Shown in pieces: positions 51,876 through 59,739 of a stretch of 64,000 nt of DNA. Both the position numbers and the translations under genes were made by a program. The stretch is from Dehalococcoidia bacterium. GTDB lineage: Bacteria > Chloroflexota > Dehalococcoidia > E44-bin15. Every line of letters begins with the position of its first letter. The stretch's first letter is position 1. The notes beneath the pieces were generated by a model, which saw nothing but the letters and a program-made list of their open reading frames with translations, was not told where the DNA came from and made no database searches. The DNA lies in NCBI GenBank assembly GCA_035528575.1, contig DATKYK010000044.1, positions 1-64,000 on the forward strand. The letters are read 5' to 3'.

Positions 51876-53396
51876 ATGTTTAAGAGAATTACTGACGATC
51901 TCGATGCACTGCTAGAGCGGCTGCCTCCCCACATTGCGCAGCCGCTCCGGGAGCGGGAGAACAGCAGCGAGCTCCTGGAGGTTATATTGGACCTGGGTCG
52001 CCCACCCGAGGCCCGTTATCCTGACCGCGAGATAGTGCTCAGCAATAAGGAGGTCTCCCAGGAGGATATCGAATATATTGTTTCCCGTATCGCCCCCTTC
52101 AGCGATGACAATCGGGCCGGCATCGAGCGCACCCTGCACCGCATCTCCGCAATCAGAAACCGCGAGGGGCGCATCGTGGGGCTAACCTGCCGCGTCGGTA
52201 GAGCGGTATACGGCACCCTCGGTCTAATTGCCGACCTGGTTGAGTCGGGCAAGAGTATCCTGCTGCTGGGCGGGCCCGGTGTAGGTAAGACTACCATGCT
52301 TCGCGAGGTGGCCCGCGTGCTTGCCGACGACCTGAAGAAGCGCGTGGTGATTGTTGATACCTCCAACGAGATCGCCGGCGATGGCGACATCCCCCATCCC
52401 GCCATCGGGCACGCACGGAGGATGCAGGTGACCACCCCAAAGCTCCAGCACGCCGTAATGATCGAGGCGGTGGAGAACCACATGCCCGAGGTTATCGTCA
52501 TCGATGAGATCGGCACCGAGCTTGAGGCCCAGGCATCGCGCACCATCGCCGAGCGTGGGGTGCAGCTTATCGCCACCGCACATGGAAACACCCTGGGTAA
52601 CCTGATCATGAACCCCACCCTTTCCGATCTCATCGGCGGCATCCAGACGGTGACACTGGGCGATGAGGAGGCTAAAAGGCGGCGCACTCAGAAGTCCATT
52701 CTGGAGAGAAAGGTACCGCCCACCTTCGACATCGTGGTCGAGATTCAAGACTGGTATCACGTGGCGGTTCACTCCGATGTCGCTGAGATAGTCGATTCAA
52801 TGCTGCGCGGGTGTCCCATCCCTCCGGAGGTTCGCTGGATGGACGAGACCGCCGAGGTGAGAAGAGAGCAGATGAAACCTGCAGATGAGCCCTCGGCAAG
52901 AAAAGCGCTTGCCGGCACCACCACCAGAATCTACCCCTTTGGCATCAATCGCAGTCGTCTTGAGCAGGCGGTGAAGCGCCTGGAGCTACCGGCGAAGCTT
53001 GCTATCGACGTAAGTGGGGCCAATCTGCTGATGACCTCCAAGAGCTATTACCGAATGAAGCCGCAGCCCATTCGCGATGCCGAGGCCGCAGGCATCCCCA
53101 TCTACGTGCTTAAGAACAACAAGGCATCGCATATGGAGCGTTCCCTATTCAATATATTCGACATGGAAGCTACCGAAGAACCCATTAGCCTGGCAACGAA
53201 GGAGGCAGAGGAGGCCATCGCCCAGGTAATCGAGGGGCAAAAGACAGTGGAGCTCAGCCCGCAGAACTCCTACCTGCGTATGCTACAGCACCAGCTCGCC
53301 GAGCGCTACAAACTTTCCTCGAAGAGCACCGGCCGCGAGCCACGGAGACGCGTTCGCATTTTTCACACAGGCGATGTTGCGAAAGATGATAGGTAA
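51876..53396 (+). CDS. Ycf45/SpoIIIAA-like AAA ATPase with R3H domain
   Basis: 506 residues. Walker [10 protein letters not shown] (about residue 132), Walker B VIVIDEIG, and the RNase-like helical N-terminus form the SpoIIIAA/Ycf45 ATPase (about 1-320). A middle domain (about 350-430) and a C-terminal R3H domain ([15 protein letters not shown] with R-x3-H, about 465-500) follow. R3H binds single-stranded nucleic acid. Widely conserved in cyanobacteria, plastids and Chloroflexi; function poorly known. Its TAA overlaps the next ATG by one base. Confidence 0.88.
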
Positions 53397-53914
53397 TGGA
53401 AGGGTCTATCTATACAATAGGTCATAGCAATCATCCGTCTGAGACATTCGTACGGTTGCTGACTCAAACCGAAATAGAGGTTCTTGTCGACATACGGAGC
53501 AATCCTGGCAGCCAATGGGCCTCATACGCAAACCCGTGCGATTTGGAGCAGATTCTTAGGGCAGTTGGTATCCAGTATATCTATTTGGGCGATATGTTGG
53601 GAGGTCAGCCTGATGACCCAGACTGCTACAACCCACAAACAGGTAAAGCAGACTATAAAGAAATGCAAAAAAAAGAGTTCTTTAAACGAGGAATCAACCG
53701 ACTTTTAGAAGCCATGAAAACGTATCATATCTGCGTGATGTGTGCCGAAGAAAATCCTTCCTCTTGCCATCGCAACCTTCTAGTCAGCGAGAGCTTGCGG
53801 CGAGAAGATGTCAAAATCTTACATATCCGTGGAACAGGGCAGATTCAAACCGATGAAGAGCTTTGGAAAGAAAATGCAGGAGTAGGAAAAAATCAACTTC
53901 CACTTCCAATGTGA
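53396..53914 (+). CDS. DUF488 protein 1
   Basis: 172 residues. YTIGHSNHPSETF, VDIRSNPGSQWA, YIYLGDMLGGQP and the signature CAEENPSSCHR match DUF488. The conserved Cys/His/Asp set suggests an enzyme, but the reaction is unknown. Start ATG overlaps the preceding stop by one base. The base composition drops to clearly AT-rich from here to about 55335, unlike both flanks, which suggests an acquired cassette. Confidence 0.85.
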   Translation: MEGSIYTIGHSNHPSETFVRLLTQTEIEVLVDIRSNPGSQWASYANPCDLEQILRAVGIQYIYLGDMLGGQPDDPDCYNPQTGKADYKEMQKKEFFKRGINRLLEAMKTYHICVMCAEENPSSCHRNLLVSESLRREDVKILHIRGTGQIQTDEELWKENAGVGKNQLPLPM

Positions 53915-53922
53915 GGTTCTTG

Positions 53923-54360
53923 GTGACTATATACACAATTGGTTTTACCAAGAAATCCGCTCAAGAATTCTTTGAGACTCTACATAATAGTGGAGCGAAG
54001 CACCTCTTCGATATTCGTCTTCACAATAAATCGCAGTTGGCAGGTTTTGCAAAGGGCGACGATCTACGTTATTTTCTTGAACAAATCGTTGATATGGAAT
54101 ACCACGAAGTACCAATACTAGCACCCGAAGACTCACTTATAACTGAATACCGAAAAACAGGAGATTGGGCCAAATATGAGCAAAGCTACCTAGAGCTAAT
54201 TGGTCAACGACAAGTCGAACGCTATATAGACCTAACGTTATTTAAAGATGGCGTTGTCCTGCTTTGTAGCGAGGCTGAACCCCATCACTGCCACCGACGG
54301 CTGGCAGCAGAATATTTAGCAAGGTCAATACTAGTAGGTGCTAATATCAAACATCTATAA
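53923..54360 (+). CDS. DUF488 protein 2
   Basis: About 145 residues, a divergent second DUF488 copy: IYTIGFTKKSAQEFF, FDIRLHNKSQLAGFAK, and CSEAEPHHCHRRLAAEYL. I chose GTG 53923 with GAGG six bases upstream; GTG 53911 would overlap the previous stop (GTGA) but has no Shine-Dalgarno. Tandem unequal DUF488 proteins suggest a heteromer. AT-rich like its neighbours. Confidence 0.82.
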   Translation: MTIYTIGFTKKSAQEFFETLHNSGAKHLFDIRLHNKSQLAGFAKGDDLRYFLEQIVDMEYHEVPILAPEDSLITEYRKTGDWAKYEQSYLELIGQRQVERYIDLTLFKDGVVLLCSEAEPHHCHRRLAAEYLARSILVGANIKHL

Positions 54361-54372
54361 AATGGAATATTA

Positions 54373-55335
54373 ATGCATAAAACAATCGTGATAAGTGATC
54401 TGACAAAGATGGGGGGAGAAGGTGTTTGTATTGTTGGCATTGACCAAAATTACCAGAGTATCCGCCCCGTTTTGCCGCCACCTGGCGTCCTAAGAAAGCA
54501 TCTTTTCAAGGGAATAATTAGAAAGCGATTGGTTATTCGCCCAAAAGCTAAAATTACATTTGACTTCCACAAAGTCCCAATTGAACCTCCACATATTGAA
54601 GACTTGGGCTTTAATCCAAAGTCAATCGTTTATGAAGGTTTATGCACTGATGCTGAGTGGGAGAAATTGATAAAAGCAATTTCCTTTCGCTCTGTTCAGG
54701 ATATATATGATGACTATCTTAAAGAAGATCGTTGGGTGGAACCTGGAACGAATACCAGGTCTTTAGGAACAGTGTCACAGATACAAGTAATTAGTGTTAA
54801 TCTCCAAGAGAGGTCTGGCGAACGACGATACAGACTCTACTTCACTGACCAGACAGGCCACCAATATGACAATGTCACTATTTCTGACTTGGCATTTCGC
54901 GCACTCTGTGACGCGGAGCTAAATCGCCGTAGTTCCCTTCTGTCTGCTTCACAATGGATTACAGACCAACTTAAAAGCGTTGATCTCCTGTATCTCAATT
55001 TTGGCTTGGCTCGCCCCTGGGCGCCAAGTGATGGTAGCTTTGGCCCCCGCTGCTGGATGCAGGTTACTGGAATCTACACCTTTCCTGATTATTTGGGAGG
55101 AAAGTCATTTGCAGACTTTGAAACAACAATGCAACCCAGTAAAACGAAAGCGTATGATGTTGAGGAAATTCGGGCGGAACACCCAAAGGCATATACAAAA
55201 TGGACTGAAGAAGAGGATAACATTTTAAGAAACGAGTATTTTCGAGGCAAAACTGTTGAGGAATTAGCAAGTAAGTTACAAAGGAAACCAGGCGCTATTC
55301 GCTCTCGTTTGATAAGATTAGGTTTATTGAAGTAA
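54373..55335 (+). CDS. Dual OB-domain-like protein with C-terminal SANT/Myb-like helix-turn-helix
   Basis: 320 residues. The N-terminal 235 residues (VISDLTKMGGEGVCIVGID, SIRPVLPP, then LNFGLARPWAP and CWMQVTGIYTFPDYL) resemble the dual OB-containing domain found beside DUF488 genes. The last 50 residues (TKWTEEEDNILRNEYFRGKT and ELASKLQRKPGAIRSRLIRLG) are a SANT/Myb-like DNA-binding helix-turn-helix. A nucleic-acid-binding role in a DUF488-centred system is inferred. Weak GGAA Shine-Dalgarno. AT-rich. Confidence 0.7.
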   Translation: MHKTIVISDLTKMGGEGVCIVGIDQNYQSIRPVLPPPGVLRKHLFKGIIRKRLVIRPKAKITFDFHKVPIEPPHIEDLGFNPKSIVYEGLCTDAEWEKLIKAISFRSVQDIYDDYLKEDRWVEPGTNTRSLGTVSQIQVISVNLQERSGERRYRLYFTDQTGHQYDNVTISDLAFRALCDAELNRRSSLLSASQWITDQLKSVDLLYLNFGLARPWAPSDGSFGPRCWMQVTGIYTFPDYLGGKSFADFETTMQPSKTKAYDVEEIRAEHPKAYTKWTEEEDNILRNEYFRGKTVEELASKLQRKPGAIRSRLIRLGLLK

Positions 55336-55369: not shown

Positions 55370-56014
55370 TTGTCATTATTCATCACATTTGAAGGCGGGG
55401 AGGGAGCGGGGAAGTCCACACAGGCGAGGGCGCTTCACCAGCGCCTTTCCAGTAAGGGCATCCCCGCACTGCTTACCCACGAGCCCGGGGGTACCCCTCT
55501 GGGCAGAGAGATCAGGCGCTGGCTCAAGGGGGAGAGGAACAACGAAACGGGGGATGTCGACCCACTCGCCGAGCTCTTGCTCTTCAATGCATCGCGTGCC
55601 GAGCTCGTCTCCAATGTGATTCAACCCGCCTTGAAGAGCGGGATCACCGTTATCTGCGACCGTTTCTACCACTCCACCGTCGCCTATCAGGGCTATGGCC
55701 GGGGCCTTTCCATCGACCTCATCGAGGCCGTCAATAACATCGCCACCGGCGGGCTGAAACCCGATCTTACTGTATTCCTAGACCTTACAATAGAACACGG
55801 TCTATCACGAAAAAAGCCAAGAGATCGCTTTGAGCGGGAGGAGCCTGACTTCCATAAGCGGGTGAGGCAGGGCTATCTGATGATAGTGAAGAAGGACCCC
55901 GAGCGCTGGCTGGTGATCGATGGCTCCCTGCCCAAAAAGGAGATCGAAAGCCTCATATTAGAGAGGATAGGGCAATTTCTTCCCAAAGTCGTAAAAAGGG
56001 TTGAAAAAAAGTAA
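55370..56014 (+). CDS. tmk: Thymidylate kinase
   Basis: 214 residues. P-loop FEGGEGAGKSTQA, EPGGTPLGR, CDRFYHSTVAYQGYGRG (DRY-like), and the lid LSRKKPRDRFE. It makes dTDP from dTMP. TTG start with GAGGT six bases upstream. The GC-rich composition resumes here. Promoter for the pyr leader overlaps its 3' end. Confidence 0.94.
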   Translation: MSLFITFEGGEGAGKSTQARALHQRLSSKGIPALLTHEPGGTPLGREIRRWLKGERNNETGDVDPLAELLLFNASRAELVSNVIQPALKSGITVICDRFYHSTVAYQGYGRGLSIDLIEAVNNIATGGLKPDLTVFLDLTIEHGLSRKKPRDRFEREEPDFHKRVRQGYLMIVKKDPERWLVIDGSLPKKEIESLILERIGQFLPKVVKRVEKK

Positions 56015-56029
56015 GGAAAGTGGTATAAT
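56001..56029 (+). promoter_or_regulatory. Promoter of the pyr leader
   Basis: TTGAAA at 56001-56006, 17-base spacer, perfect TATAAT at 56024-56029. It overlaps the tmk stop codon and drives the leader that carries the small Cys-rich gene and the PyrR attenuator. Confidence 0.75.
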
Positions 56030-56064
56030 AGCCCGCTAGAAAAATGAAGGAGTGAGATTAGCTA

Positions 56065-56235
56065 ATGAGTGATACGAAGATGAAGACGATCAGCCTATGT
56101 GGTTCATGTTCTTCTTGTCCTGTGGTGAAGATAGGCGACGAACACGTTGAGATCGGAGAGGATGGTAACCTCTGCATTCTCACCAAGAGCCAGTGGGAGA
56201 CCCTGAAGCAAAAGGTATTGAACGGAGAGGCGTAG
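56065..56235 (+). CDS. 56-residue Cys-rich protein encoded in the pyr leader
   Basis: ATG at 56065 to TAG at 56233-56235. The sequence has LCGSCSSCPVVK (C-x2-C-x2-C, residues 12-18) and a later Cys in the segment GNLCILTKSQWETLKQK. AAGGAG lies 11 bases before the ATG. The strand/turn/helix pattern and good codon use suggest a real gene, possibly a metal-binding microprotein. It lies downstream of the promoter but upstream of the attenuator, so it would be expressed whether or not pyrR is attenuated (inference). Confidence 0.65.
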   Translation: MSDTKMKTISLCGSCSSCPVVKIGDEHVEIGEDGNLCILTKSQWETLKQKVLNGEA

Positions 56236-56333: not shown

Positions 56334-56366
56334 CCCCTTGCCAGCAAATAGGCGAGGGGTTTTTTT
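56334..56366 (+). terminator. pyr attenuator terminator containing the pyrR Shine-Dalgarno
   Basis: CCCCTTGCC (56334-56342) pairs with GGCGAGGGG (56351-56359) around AGCAAATA, then seven T (56360-56366) directly abut the pyrR ATG. GAGGGG (56354-56359) is the only Shine-Dalgarno for pyrR, seven bases before the ATG, so the hairpin would also block translation. Confidence 0.85.
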
Positions 56367-56921
56367 ATGCCTGAGAAAGTGATCCTAGACCAGGAAGATA
56401 TCCGCCGTGCCATAACCCGCATCGCCCATGAGATCGTGGAGCGAAATCACGGTTGCGACGGCATTATTCTTATGGGGGTGCACACCCGTGGCGTACCCCT
56501 AGCGAAGAGGATCGCTGCAAGTATACAGGAGTTCGAACATACCGAAGTCCCCGTTGGCGACCTGGATATCAGCCTTCATCGCGATGACCTTCTCTCTTTC
56601 GAGGTGCAACCCTTCCTCCGTCCTACAAATATCCCCGCCGATATCGAGGGGAAGCGTATCGTCCTGGTCGATGATGTCCTCTATACCGGACGCAGCACTC
56701 GTGCCGCCATGGATGCCCTTATCGACCATGGGCGGCCGCTGTCCATTCAGCTGGTGGTGCTTATTGACCGCGGCCATCGAGAGATACCAATCCGCGCCGA
56801 CTTCGTGGGAAAGAATATGCCCACGTCAAGGGATGAGGAGGTCGAGGTGCGTCTCAAGGAAATCGATGGCAGAGATGAGGTGGCCATTGTAAAAGATGGG
56901 AGTAAGCGGGAGTCAATCTAA
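56367..56921 (+). CDS. pyrR: Bifunctional pyr operon regulator / uracil phosphoribosyltransferase
   Basis: 184 residues. The PRPP loop [18 protein letters not shown] (about residues 97-114), the GIHTRG-like segment [11 protein letters not shown] and the RNA-binding basic surface in R(E)[11 protein letters not shown] are those of PyrR. It binds pyr mRNA in the presence of UMP and has weak UPRTase activity. It controls its own operon through the attenuator immediately upstream. Confidence 0.95.
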
Positions 56922-56961: not shown

Positions 56962-58371
56962 ATGAGCCTAGCAAACAGAAGCCTGATCACCATAGACGAC
57001 CTCTCAAATAAAGAGATTGAGGCAGTCTTTTCTCTAGCAGACGGGATGTCTTATTCGATGAATGAGCAATCAAGCGTGTGTCAGGGCAAGATCATGGCCA
57101 GCCTATTTTTCGAGCCCAGCACCAGGACCAGGCTTTCTTTCGAGGCGGCGATGCACCGGCTAGGTGGCAGGGTAATATCCGTGGTGGAGATGGGAAACAC
57201 CTCGCTGGCAAAAGGCGAGAGCATCGCCGATATGGCAAGGGTGGTGGGAAGCTATGCCGATATAATCGTCATCAGGCACCCGTGGGAGGGGGCTGCCAGG
57301 GTGGTCTCCGACTATGCTGGCGTCCCGGTAATAAATGCCGGCGACGGGGGACATGAACACCCCACCCAGACCCTGTGCGACCTCTACACCATCAGGAAGG
57401 AGAGGCATACTCTTGAAGGGCTGAAGATTGCGCTCTGGGGCGACCTCAAATACGGGCGAACCATACATTCCCTAGCCTACGCGCTGGCCAGGTTCGGGGC
57501 AACCATCCATTTTCGTCCCGGCTCGGGCCTTGGTCTACCGGAGCACGTTATAAGGAAGCTGACTACCGAATATGGAGGTATACTGGAAAGATATAACGAT
57601 ACCAAAGGCGTGGATAAGGAGAGGATTTTCCCCCTGGATGCCATATATATGACCCCGAGCAAGCCGCATCAACTGGCAAATATACCCGATGTCAGCATCC
57701 AGATCGAGATGAAGAAGGGCGTTGATGCCCTTTATGTTACCAGACTTCAGAGAGAGAGACTTGATATACCAGCAAAAGGACAGGAATTGGCGAAGGACTA
57801 CCCGGTAGTGGATAAAAAACTCCTGAAAGGAAAACAGTTCAAGCAAACACTTGTTATGCACCCATTACCACGTATCGATGAGCTTGCCTGTGAGATCGAT
57901 GCTGACCCCAGAAGCATGTACTTCAAACAAGCAGCTTGGGGGTTACCGATTAGAATGGCCCTCATGTCCCTCCTGCTCGGAGCTAAACAGTTAGATATCG
58001 ATGAGCAGGAAGGGCAAACCTTCCCCTCAAAGAAAGACTATCCCGTTTACAGGCGCGATTTTGGGGTCAAGTGCCAAAATAAAAGATGCGTGTCCGCCCA
58101 GCAAACGGAAACAAGGTATATTAAGCCTGTATTCAAAATAGTAGCCAACGAGCCTTTAACGCTTAGGTGTATCTATTGCGAGCACGAGACGCAACCGCCC
58201 TATATCGCCAGCTCCAAGTGGCATCAAGGGACTATAGAACACAAGAGATACTACGATGCAGATAGCTTCATGCTTGGACGAATAAAACCGGAGAATCTCA
58301 TTATATTTGATTCAAAAACGGTCGCTCAAGCTGAGGGATTCAAGCCGGGCAGAAAGGCCCTTCGGGAATGA
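56962..58371 (+). CDS. pyrB: Aspartate carbamoyltransferase fused to a PyrI-like zinc domain
   Basis: 470 residues, about 160 more than plain PyrB. The catalytic part has FFEPSTRTRLSFE, GESIADMARV, the carbamoyl-phosphate/aspartate motif GGHEHPTQTLCDL, and HPLPRIDE. The C-terminal part (about 365-410) has CQNKRC and CIYC, i.e. C-x4-C...C-x2-C in the spacing of the zinc domain of PyrI, while the PyrI nucleotide-binding domain is not evident. Start ATG 56962 with GGGGG upstream; the frame is open back to 56896. The zinc part may mediate subunit contact. Confidence 0.92.
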   Translation: MSLANRSLITIDDLSNKEIEAVFSLADGMSYSMNEQSSVCQGKIMASLFFEPSTRTRLSFEAAMHRLGGRVISVVEMGNTSLAKGESIADMARVVGSYADIIVIRHPWEGAARVVSDYAGVPVINAGDGGHEHPTQTLCDLYTIRKERHTLEGLKIALWGDLKYGRTIHSLAYALARFGATIHFRPGSGLGLPEHVIRKLTTEYGGILERYNDTKGVDKERIFPLDAIYMTPSKPHQLANIPDVSIQIEMKKGVDALYVTRLQRERLDIPAKGQELAKDYPVVDKKLLKGKQFKQTLVMHPLPRIDELACEIDADPRSMYFKQAAWGLPIRMALMSLLLGAKQLDIDEQEGQTFPSKKDYPVYRRDFGVKCQNKRCVSAQQTETRYIKPVFKIVANEPLTLRCIYCEHETQPPYIASSKWHQGTIEHKRYYDADSFMLGRIKPENLIIFDSKTVAQAEGFKPGRKALRE

Positions 58372-58389
58372 TCCAGCAATGAGGTGCCA

Positions 58390-59739
58390 TTGATCAAGGA
58401 GCGCCTTGACCGCCAGCCTGAGAGCCTGCTTATCAGCGGTGGTCGTATAATCGACCCCTCGCAGAACTACGATGCCATTGGCGACCTTTTTATCGCCGAT
58501 GGTAAGATCCGCTGGCTCAGCACGGAGAAGAGCGAACCAGCACCTGAGAACTGCCAGATAGTCCATGCCAGGGGGATGGCAGTCTGCCCCGGGTTTATCG
58601 ACATTCACTGCCACCTGCGCCAGCCTGGATTCGAGGAGAAGGAGACCATCTATACAGGTACCCGCGCCGCAGCCAGGGGCGGGTTCACCACCGTTTGCTG
58701 CATGCCTAACACCGAGCCGCCTTTAGATACCGGAGCTACGGTGCAATACATTATGGAGGTAGCTGCCAACGAAGGTGTGGTCCGCGTCCTGCCAGTTGGT
58801 TGTGTTAGCAGAGACAGGGCAGGAAGCGAGCTCGCCGACCTCGGCGAGCTTTCCACATGCGGAGTTATAGGCTTCAGCGACGATGGCAACCCGGTAGCCG
58901 ACCCCTTGCTCATGCGGCGCGCCCTGGAGTACAGCAGGGGCTCCGGTTTACCTGTTATCGATCACTGCGAAGACCTAAACCTCAGCGCGGGGGGGGTGAT
59001 GAACGAGGGCGCAGTGGCGAGCCGACTGGCGCTTAAAGGAACACCACCTGCCGCTGAGGAGGATATGGTCGCCAGGGATATTGAGCTGGCAAGGGCAACC
59101 GGCGGCAGGCTGCACATCGCTCATGTGAGCACCGCCGGCTCGGTTGCGCTCATCCGCCGTGCCAAAGGTGAGGGCGTTTGGGTTACTGCGGAGGTAACCC
59201 CACATCATCTAACCCTGACCGAGGAGGCGGTTGCTGGCTACAACACCAACGCCAAGGTGAACCCTCCGCTCAGAACAGCGCGGGATGTCCAGGCACTCAT
59301 CGAAGGCCTGAAAGAGGGGGTGATCGATGCCATAGCCACCGACCATGCTCCGCACACCGTCGAGGACAAGATGTGCCAGTTCGACCAGGCTCCCTTTGGC
59401 ATCAGCGGATTCGAGACCGCATTGGGCAGCCTAATGGGGCTGGTGCACCAAGGAAGGATCGATCTGGTGACACTTATCTCGAAACTTACGCACGGGCCGG
59501 CATCGTTCCTGAGTCGAGATGACCTGGGTACGCTAAAGGCCGGTGCCACGGCCGATGTCACAATATTCGACCCCGATGCTGAGTGGACGGTTGACCCCTC
59601 AACGTTCGCTTCCAAGGGCAAAAACACCCCCCTTAGCGGCTATGTTCTTAAAGGCAGGGTGATGCTCACAGTGGTCGGGGGGACGGTAGCGTATAGCAAC
59701 AACACGACTCCTATTAACTTGAAGGGCAGAAACAGATAA
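58390..59739 (+). CDS. pyrC: Dihydroorotase, type I
   Basis: About 449 residues. Metal ligands in DIHCHLRQPG, CCMPNTEPP, the His/Asp set near DHCEDLNL, IAHVSTAGS and ATDHAPHTVEDK. It cyclises carbamoyl aspartate. TTG 58390 is chosen because GAGG stands five bases upstream; GTG 58384 (two codons earlier) is the alternative without a Shine-Dalgarno. Lies 18 bp after pyrB, consistent with an operon. Confidence 0.94.
   Translation: MIKERLDRQPESLLISGGRIIDPSQNYDAIGDLFIADGKIRWLSTEKSEPAPENCQIVHARGMAVCPGFIDIHCHLRQPGFEEKETIYTGTRAAARGGFTTVCCMPNTEPPLDTGATVQYIMEVAANEGVVRVLPVGCVSRDRAGSELADLGELSTCGVIGFSDDGNPVADPLLMRRALEYSRGSGLPVIDHCEDLNLSAGGVMNEGAVASRLALKGTPPAAEEDMVARDIELARATGGRLHIAHVSTAGSVALIRRAKGEGVWVTAEVTPHHLTLTEEAVAGYNTNAKVNPPLRTARDVQALIEGLKEGVIDAIATDHAPHTVEDKMCQFDQAPFGISGFETALGSLMGLVHQGRIDLVTLISKLTHGPASFLSRDDLGTLKAGATADVTIFDPDAEWTVDPSTFASKGKNTPLSGYVLKGRVMLTVVGGTVAYSNNTTPINLKGRNR

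Follow-up and report, generated by a model that had tools for sequence, protein, structure and literature searches.

A short reading frame in the leader of a pyrimidine biosynthesis (pyr) operon was analysed in a stretch of 64,000 nucleotides (nt) from a Dehalococcoidia bacterium (GenBank:DATKYK010000044.1, positions 1 to 64,000; hereafter the window). The frame (56065–56235, +) runs from an ATG at 56065 to a TAG at 56235, has 56 codons and encodes MSDTKMKTISLCGSCSSCPVVKIGDEHVEIGEDGNLCILTKSQWETLKQKVLNGEA, with cysteines arranged as C12-x2-C15-x2-C18 plus C37. Comparison with related sequences indicates that it codes for a genuine protein, and we hold, with modest confidence, that this protein belongs to an undescribed thiol family handling soft metals or persulfides and that the pyr copy is a passenger of the pyr promoter. 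The frame is preceded by a sigma-70-type promoter (TTGAAA-17-TATAAT, with TG before the −10 box; 56001–56029, +; 11/12 consensus matches) and by a Shine-Dalgarno sequence, AAGGAG (56047–56052, +), at the long spacing of 12 nt upstream of the ATG, and is followed by a PyrR-binding attenuator element (RF00515; 56258–56368, +). A preliminary description had reported a start- and stop-bounded 56-residue cysteine frame with a Shine-Dalgarno sequence between a strong promoter and an attenuator, and all of these features were confirmed. The true start may be the second Met codon, at 56080, since most relatives begin there and one of the other pyr-leader copies (genome G001) is without the first Met.

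Length is weak evidence for a gene here: of 5000 Markov resamples of the tmk-pyrR gap, 319 also gave a forward ATG frame of at least 56 residues, though never one with C-x2-C-x2-C. Homology therefore decides. A search with the single 56-residue protein gave matches in 18 of 100 genomes, its own included and matched twice, and a profile built from 22 aligned family sequences matched 53 of the 393 class genomes and 11 of 301 genomes taken from the phylum. By this homology the small protein, which the preliminary description had thought easily missed, proved to be real. Eighteen of the 20 named loci from a scan of genome contigs lay in metagenome-assembled genomes labelled Dehalococcoidia, Dehalococcoidales or Chloroflexi, the other two carrying a Deltaproteobacteria label and a candidate division NPL-UPA2 label; a plasmid search with the window protein gave no match. 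Among the four copies found in pyr leaders, the ratio of nonsynonymous to synonymous change (Ka/Ks) was 0.18–0.36. The window genome (G000) also holds a second family copy (G000:C36:128754-128903; L019/L157), 64% identical to the pyr copy, and between the two 30 of 120.5 nonsynonymous and 29 of 32.5 synonymous sites had changed (Fisher p 5e-11).

The family consists of proteins of about 50 residues with an LC-x(4-5)-C-P thiol loop and a predicted beta-beta-beta-beta-alpha fold. In an alignment of 70 members, L11 (70/70), C12 (69/70), P19 (69/70) and C18 (67/70) were near-invariant, E32 (69/70) and N35 (68/70) were also near-fixed, a third cysteine stood at position 17 (48/70) or 15 (25/70), and the fourth, C37, was present in 49/70. 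AlphaFold2, run on 20 sequences, placed strands at residues 7–10, 20–23, 27–32 and 35–40 and a helix at 41–52, with a mean predicted local distance difference test score (pLDDT) of 85 and a predicted template modelling score of 0.65. Members are probably cytosolic. The window protein matched nothing in Pfam or NCBIfam, and the 22 aligned members matched seven Pfam families at E up to 10, all below cut-off; a PDB sequence search with the window protein gave a best E of 0.65, and a PDB fold search gave 264 matches at E up to 10 and none at E up to 0.001. Two candidate identities were rejected: Usp-48 (PF24543), which 14 of the 22 members matched weakly (best 20.5 bits, below the curated cut-off of 27), and an HMA or CopZ-type copper chaperone, Pfam HMA (PF00403) matching neither the window protein nor any of the 22 members. 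The family, which was not named in the literature found by a limited search, is undescribed. It was also noticed that one member next to a MerR gene (L154, in G046:C2) is split across two frames, probably through gene decay or misassembly, and that in G097 a second, weakly matching cysteine-containing frame of 71 residues (L023) directly follows a family member (L132), adjoining a NifU-like gene; L023 and a weak match in G117 were not used as members.

The gene neighbourhoods of the relatives, taken as 3 kb around each locus, point to the handling of metals. Among 66 family loci outside pyr leaders, which are not independent (several share GTDB families, and two loci can come from one genome), 48 had within this distance a gene of one of ten metal-handling families (CopA, CsoR, ArsR, MerR, MerA-like, ArsP, CDF, CutA1, YHS and ArsM-like), compared with 2.3% of background spans, these being 6-kb spans in twenty 20-kb stretches of ten carrier genomes. 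Neighbours were named by Pfam, except that ArsM-like for a methyltransferase, MerA-like for a pyridine-nucleotide disulphide oxidoreductase and CopA for a heavy-metal P-type ATPase are our own readings. The arrangements included 1) CsoR-small gene-CopA (L040, L042 and L049), 2) ArsR-small gene-MerA-like (L104, L108 and L113), and 3) ArsP-small gene-CDF (L086, L140 and L149), and in a group of GTDB family f14 the small gene was two genes from CutA1. Since the gene list was drawn from the same neighbourhoods, the count was repeated with seven families noted beforehand on 34 loci not previously viewed; 20 of these loci and 13 of their 19 GTDB families were positive, compared with 65 of 2800 background points, the held-out loci sharing GTDB families with the earlier ones. 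The 66-locus count includes L056, L152, L153 (truncated) and L154 (frameshifted), and the 34-locus count includes the same loci except L056. Judging by the conserved cysteines and the neighbouring genes, our best guess is a thiol protein that handles soft metals (or sulfur), whose N-terminal cysteines would bind a soft metal or persulfide sulfur. The metal-binding microprotein suggested in the preliminary description is thus made plausible by the neighbourhoods of the relatives, binding itself being what we infer. As a separate observation, a predicted membrane protein of about 68 residues without a Pfam match (L115:4236-4439, −, and relatives) recurred near CopA-like ATPases and the small family at 6 of the 66 loci.

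The same neighbourhoods bear on the alternative that the protein works in sulfur relay, as a carrier of persulfide or sulfur for FdhD, ThiF/ThiS, Thi4 or NifS-type pathways, which we consider unlikely. Genes of a sulfur-transfer list (FdhD, ThiF, ThiS, Thi4, NifS, NifU and DUF1858) occurred within 3 kb of 18 of the 66 loci, compared with 1.9% of the background, but metal neighbours were commoner and often immediate. Genes of either kind were found at 51 loci (background 4.2%), with sulfur genes alone at only three of these, and the sulfur list was post hoc, with no held-out set. Besides this sulfur association and the GTDB families shared between held-out and earlier loci, several observations weigh against a soft-metal thiol protein: no listed metal gene was present within 3 kb at 18 of the 66 loci, the second copies of the window genome's own family (L157–L159) among them; the pyr neighbourhoods showed no listed metal gene; all 17 genes of the list were picked after the same neighbourhoods had been viewed; and few parts of the AlphaFold2 model are less certain than the cysteine loop (mean pLDDT 75 for residues 11–20).

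Fourteen genomes of the same GTDB family were compared for their pyr leaders, which could be read in 10, those of G009, G010 and G012 being unreadable owing to weak pyrR hits and that of G011 being cut by a contig end. An intact small gene was found in G000, G001, G008 and G013, in the order tmk, promoter, small gene, PyrR element and pyrR; the four copies were 80–93% identical, all four had an AGGAG(G) run upstream of the frame, and 217–230 nt separated the −10 box from the AACCTTT of the element. G002, G003, G005, G006 and G007 had no frame and only 22–30 nt in this interval, which was 73 nt long in G004. Here a 45-nt stretch resembles the last codons of the gene and the sequence that follows (with a local score of 45, against 29 for the best of 2000 shuffles), none of 1000 shuffles being equally good for the gene part alone, and inspection by eye placed this remnant out of frame with the preceding ATG; it was therefore read as a deleted gene. 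G004 holds another family copy elsewhere in its genome, and, of the other genomes without the leader gene, G002 gave one match at E 0.046 and G003, G005, G006 and G007 none up to E 1. The check for a conserved or frameshifted frame proposed in the preliminary description thus gave a divided answer in the 10 readable leaders: four intact copies, one frameshifted remnant and five clean absences. TTGAAA and TATAAT hexamers were present in 9 of the 10 (spacing 16–18 nt, 17 in 7/9), those of G002 deviating as TTGCCA/TATCAT, and the PyrR element was detected in carrier and non-carrier leaders at 54 bits or more, except in G004 (53.3) and G006 (50.4). In the window it scored 57.1 bits (E 3.3e-5), above the gathering score of 54, which L002–L004 passed likewise. 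Since the leaders without the frame keep promoter and PyrR element, the small gene is dispensable, and the attenuator seems not to need it.

These leaders also allow an assessment of the idea, raised in the preliminary description, that translation of the frame affects attenuation, the frame acting as a leader peptide whose translation, or ribosome stalling on it, would modulate the attenuator as in classical attenuation. The frame lies between promoter and attenuator with its TAG 22 nt before the PyrR element, the fold of the leader RNA is somewhat better than that of shuffles (z −2.1), and synonymous sites are conserved beyond those of the neighbouring genes in one genome pair, all of which would suit such a role. 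A frame serving in attenuation should, however, be kept wherever the attenuator is kept, and six of the 10 leaders retain promoter and element with a remnant or no frame at all. Moreover, the frame ends 98 nt before the terminator stem, related proteins occur at 66 loci without a pyrR neighbour, and PyrR binding already explains the switch. The attenuation idea is not supported, and we regard a leader peptide as improbable. The predicted fold of the leader RNA including the small frame retains the terminator hairpin.

Synonymous sites were compared as the preliminary description had suggested. Between G000 and G013, 4 of 34.5 synonymous sites differed in the small frame, compared with 114 of 287 in tmk and pyrR (proportions of differing synonymous sites 0.116 and 0.398; p 0.001), and the pair G000 and G001 gave p 0.03, but the other four pairs were not significant (p 0.10, 0.14, 0.58 and 1.0). 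The low value for G000 and G013 also counts against the preferred explanation, as a role of the RNA or a recent transfer is possible. With four genomes only, constraint on the RNA, codon bias and recent exchange are all possible causes of the low synonymous change.

Taken with the leaders, the small gene is probably a passenger of the pyr promoter and not a component of the switch. In one Dehalococcoidia family a copy lies behind the pyr promoter and ahead of the PyrR attenuator, where it would use the strong pyr promoter and all pyr transcripts would begin with it as their first cistron. Because it lies upstream of the attenuator, its transcription would continue under termination by PyrR, and the small protein would be made irrespective of the state of the attenuator and of the pyrimidine supply. 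As to the source of the copy, the highest identities to it outside pyr leaders were those of L046, L040 and L042 (70–73%), the operon trees are unrooted, and nucleotide and protein trees conflict. The protein tree groups the pyr copies (support 0.94) near the second copies of the same GTDB family and the pheS-linked copies (weaker support). Derivation from a CsoR-CopA operon is not claimed, the protein tree placing the pyr copies elsewhere; CsoR was found in 3 and a CopA-like ATPase in 7 of the 14 family genomes, with no simple correspondence to the four carriers.

The surrounding genes form a pyr operon behind tmk. The thymidylate kinase gene tmk (55370–56014, +; PF02223) contains in its 3′ end the −35 box of the promoter described above. 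The intrinsic terminator of the attenuator (56334–56366, +) has its stem at 56334–56359, followed by seven T residues, and directly downstream lie pyrR (56367–56921, +; Pfam Pribosyltran, named from its context behind the attenuator), pyrB with a C-terminal PyrI_C metal-binding domain (56962–58371, +; domain matches) and the dihydroorotase gene pyrC (58384–59739, +; amidohydrolase/DHOase matches). The N-terminal, nucleotide-binding PyrI domain was not reported for the aspartate carbamoyltransferase at 56962–58371. Antisense frames overlie the small gene. Upstream of tmk (53396–55335) are two adjacent DUF488 genes and a gene for 320 residues without a Pfam match, and a similar order was seen in L039.

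The analysis thus describes a widespread unnamed small-protein family in Dehalococcoidia that is strongly linked to genes for copper, mercury and arsenic, together with a cysteine motif open to testing. With the profile, annotators can look for a gene so short that gene callers may skip it. In the pyr leader, a protein gene hosted between promoter and attenuator would have its output decoupled from the operon's own regulation.

In Escherichia coli, the leader peptide of pyrBI, PyrL, is translated to or through the terminator in a mechanism coupled to uridine triphosphate. Both leaders have a translated frame in front of a pyr attenuator, but in the present one the frame ends about 100 nt earlier (stop 56235, stem 56334) and the sensor is the PyrR element. 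With other PyrR-regulated pyr operons (RF00515) the present leader shares the PyrR element and terminator ahead of pyrR-pyrB-pyrC, and is set apart, in four genomes of one family, by a protein gene that separates the element from the promoter; excerpts of a general treatment of PyrR motifs and Chloroflexi mention no such leader gene (PMC3766115).

The family also resembles DUF397 (Scr2 and paralogues, PF04149) in length, in one conserved cysteine before a V-x-V strand and in a C-terminal GE(F/L), the cysteine and GE(F/L) being in register, and a distant kinship is possible from profile comparison. On this basis the protein might be an accessory regulator, a DUF397 cousin acting via a neighbouring CsoR, ArsR or MerR, one of which adjoins the small gene at several loci. 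The profile-profile score against seven DUF397 proteins was 30.0, compared with a best of 22.8 and a median of 8 in 200 column-permuted controls, and alignment A1 gave a match probability of 78.5–83%, above all 200 controls; this fell, however, to 22–26% with the window-like subset A3. Pfam DUF397 matched 0 of 22 members, and the thiol cluster is absent in DUF397. The partners of DUF397 described in excerpts of PMC6262351 are XRE regulators, which were not found here; the regulators recurring beside the small family are CsoR, ArsR and MerR, and these are absent near the pyr copies. A DUF397 scan of the window genome gave no match, but 14 control genomes were equally silent. We consider a regulatory role distinctly unlikely, and the soft-metal or persulfide thiol protein remains our preferred reading.

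Finally, the leader may be compared with CruR (DUF2946), a copper-responsive upstream open reading frame of Bordetella pertussis with a C-terminal RAPP arrest motif, as given in excerpts of PMC9426467; a further mark of CruR is metal-dependent Rho termination downstream. By analogy, the pyr-leader copy could be a nascent-chain sensor coupling metal or redox stress to pyrimidine synthesis, in which a soft metal or an oxidised thiol on the nascent cysteines would alter ribosome behaviour shortly ahead of the PyrR element. Synonymous-site conservation and the nearness of the stop codon to the element are compatible with such a sensor, but we think it highly improbable. The window protein has 56 residues, is followed by a PyrR-controlled intrinsic attenuator and has no Pfam match, DUF2946 thus included; DUF2946 was not among the seven families matched by the 22 members either, and RAPP is absent from their alignment. 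To judge from the same excerpts, CruR and the present protein are alike in being small cysteine-motif proteins encoded first in the transcript, ahead of a termination event, with relatives associated with copper genes, and CruR is the nearest working analogy for the attenuation idea because there a copper-sensing first open reading frame acts on termination.
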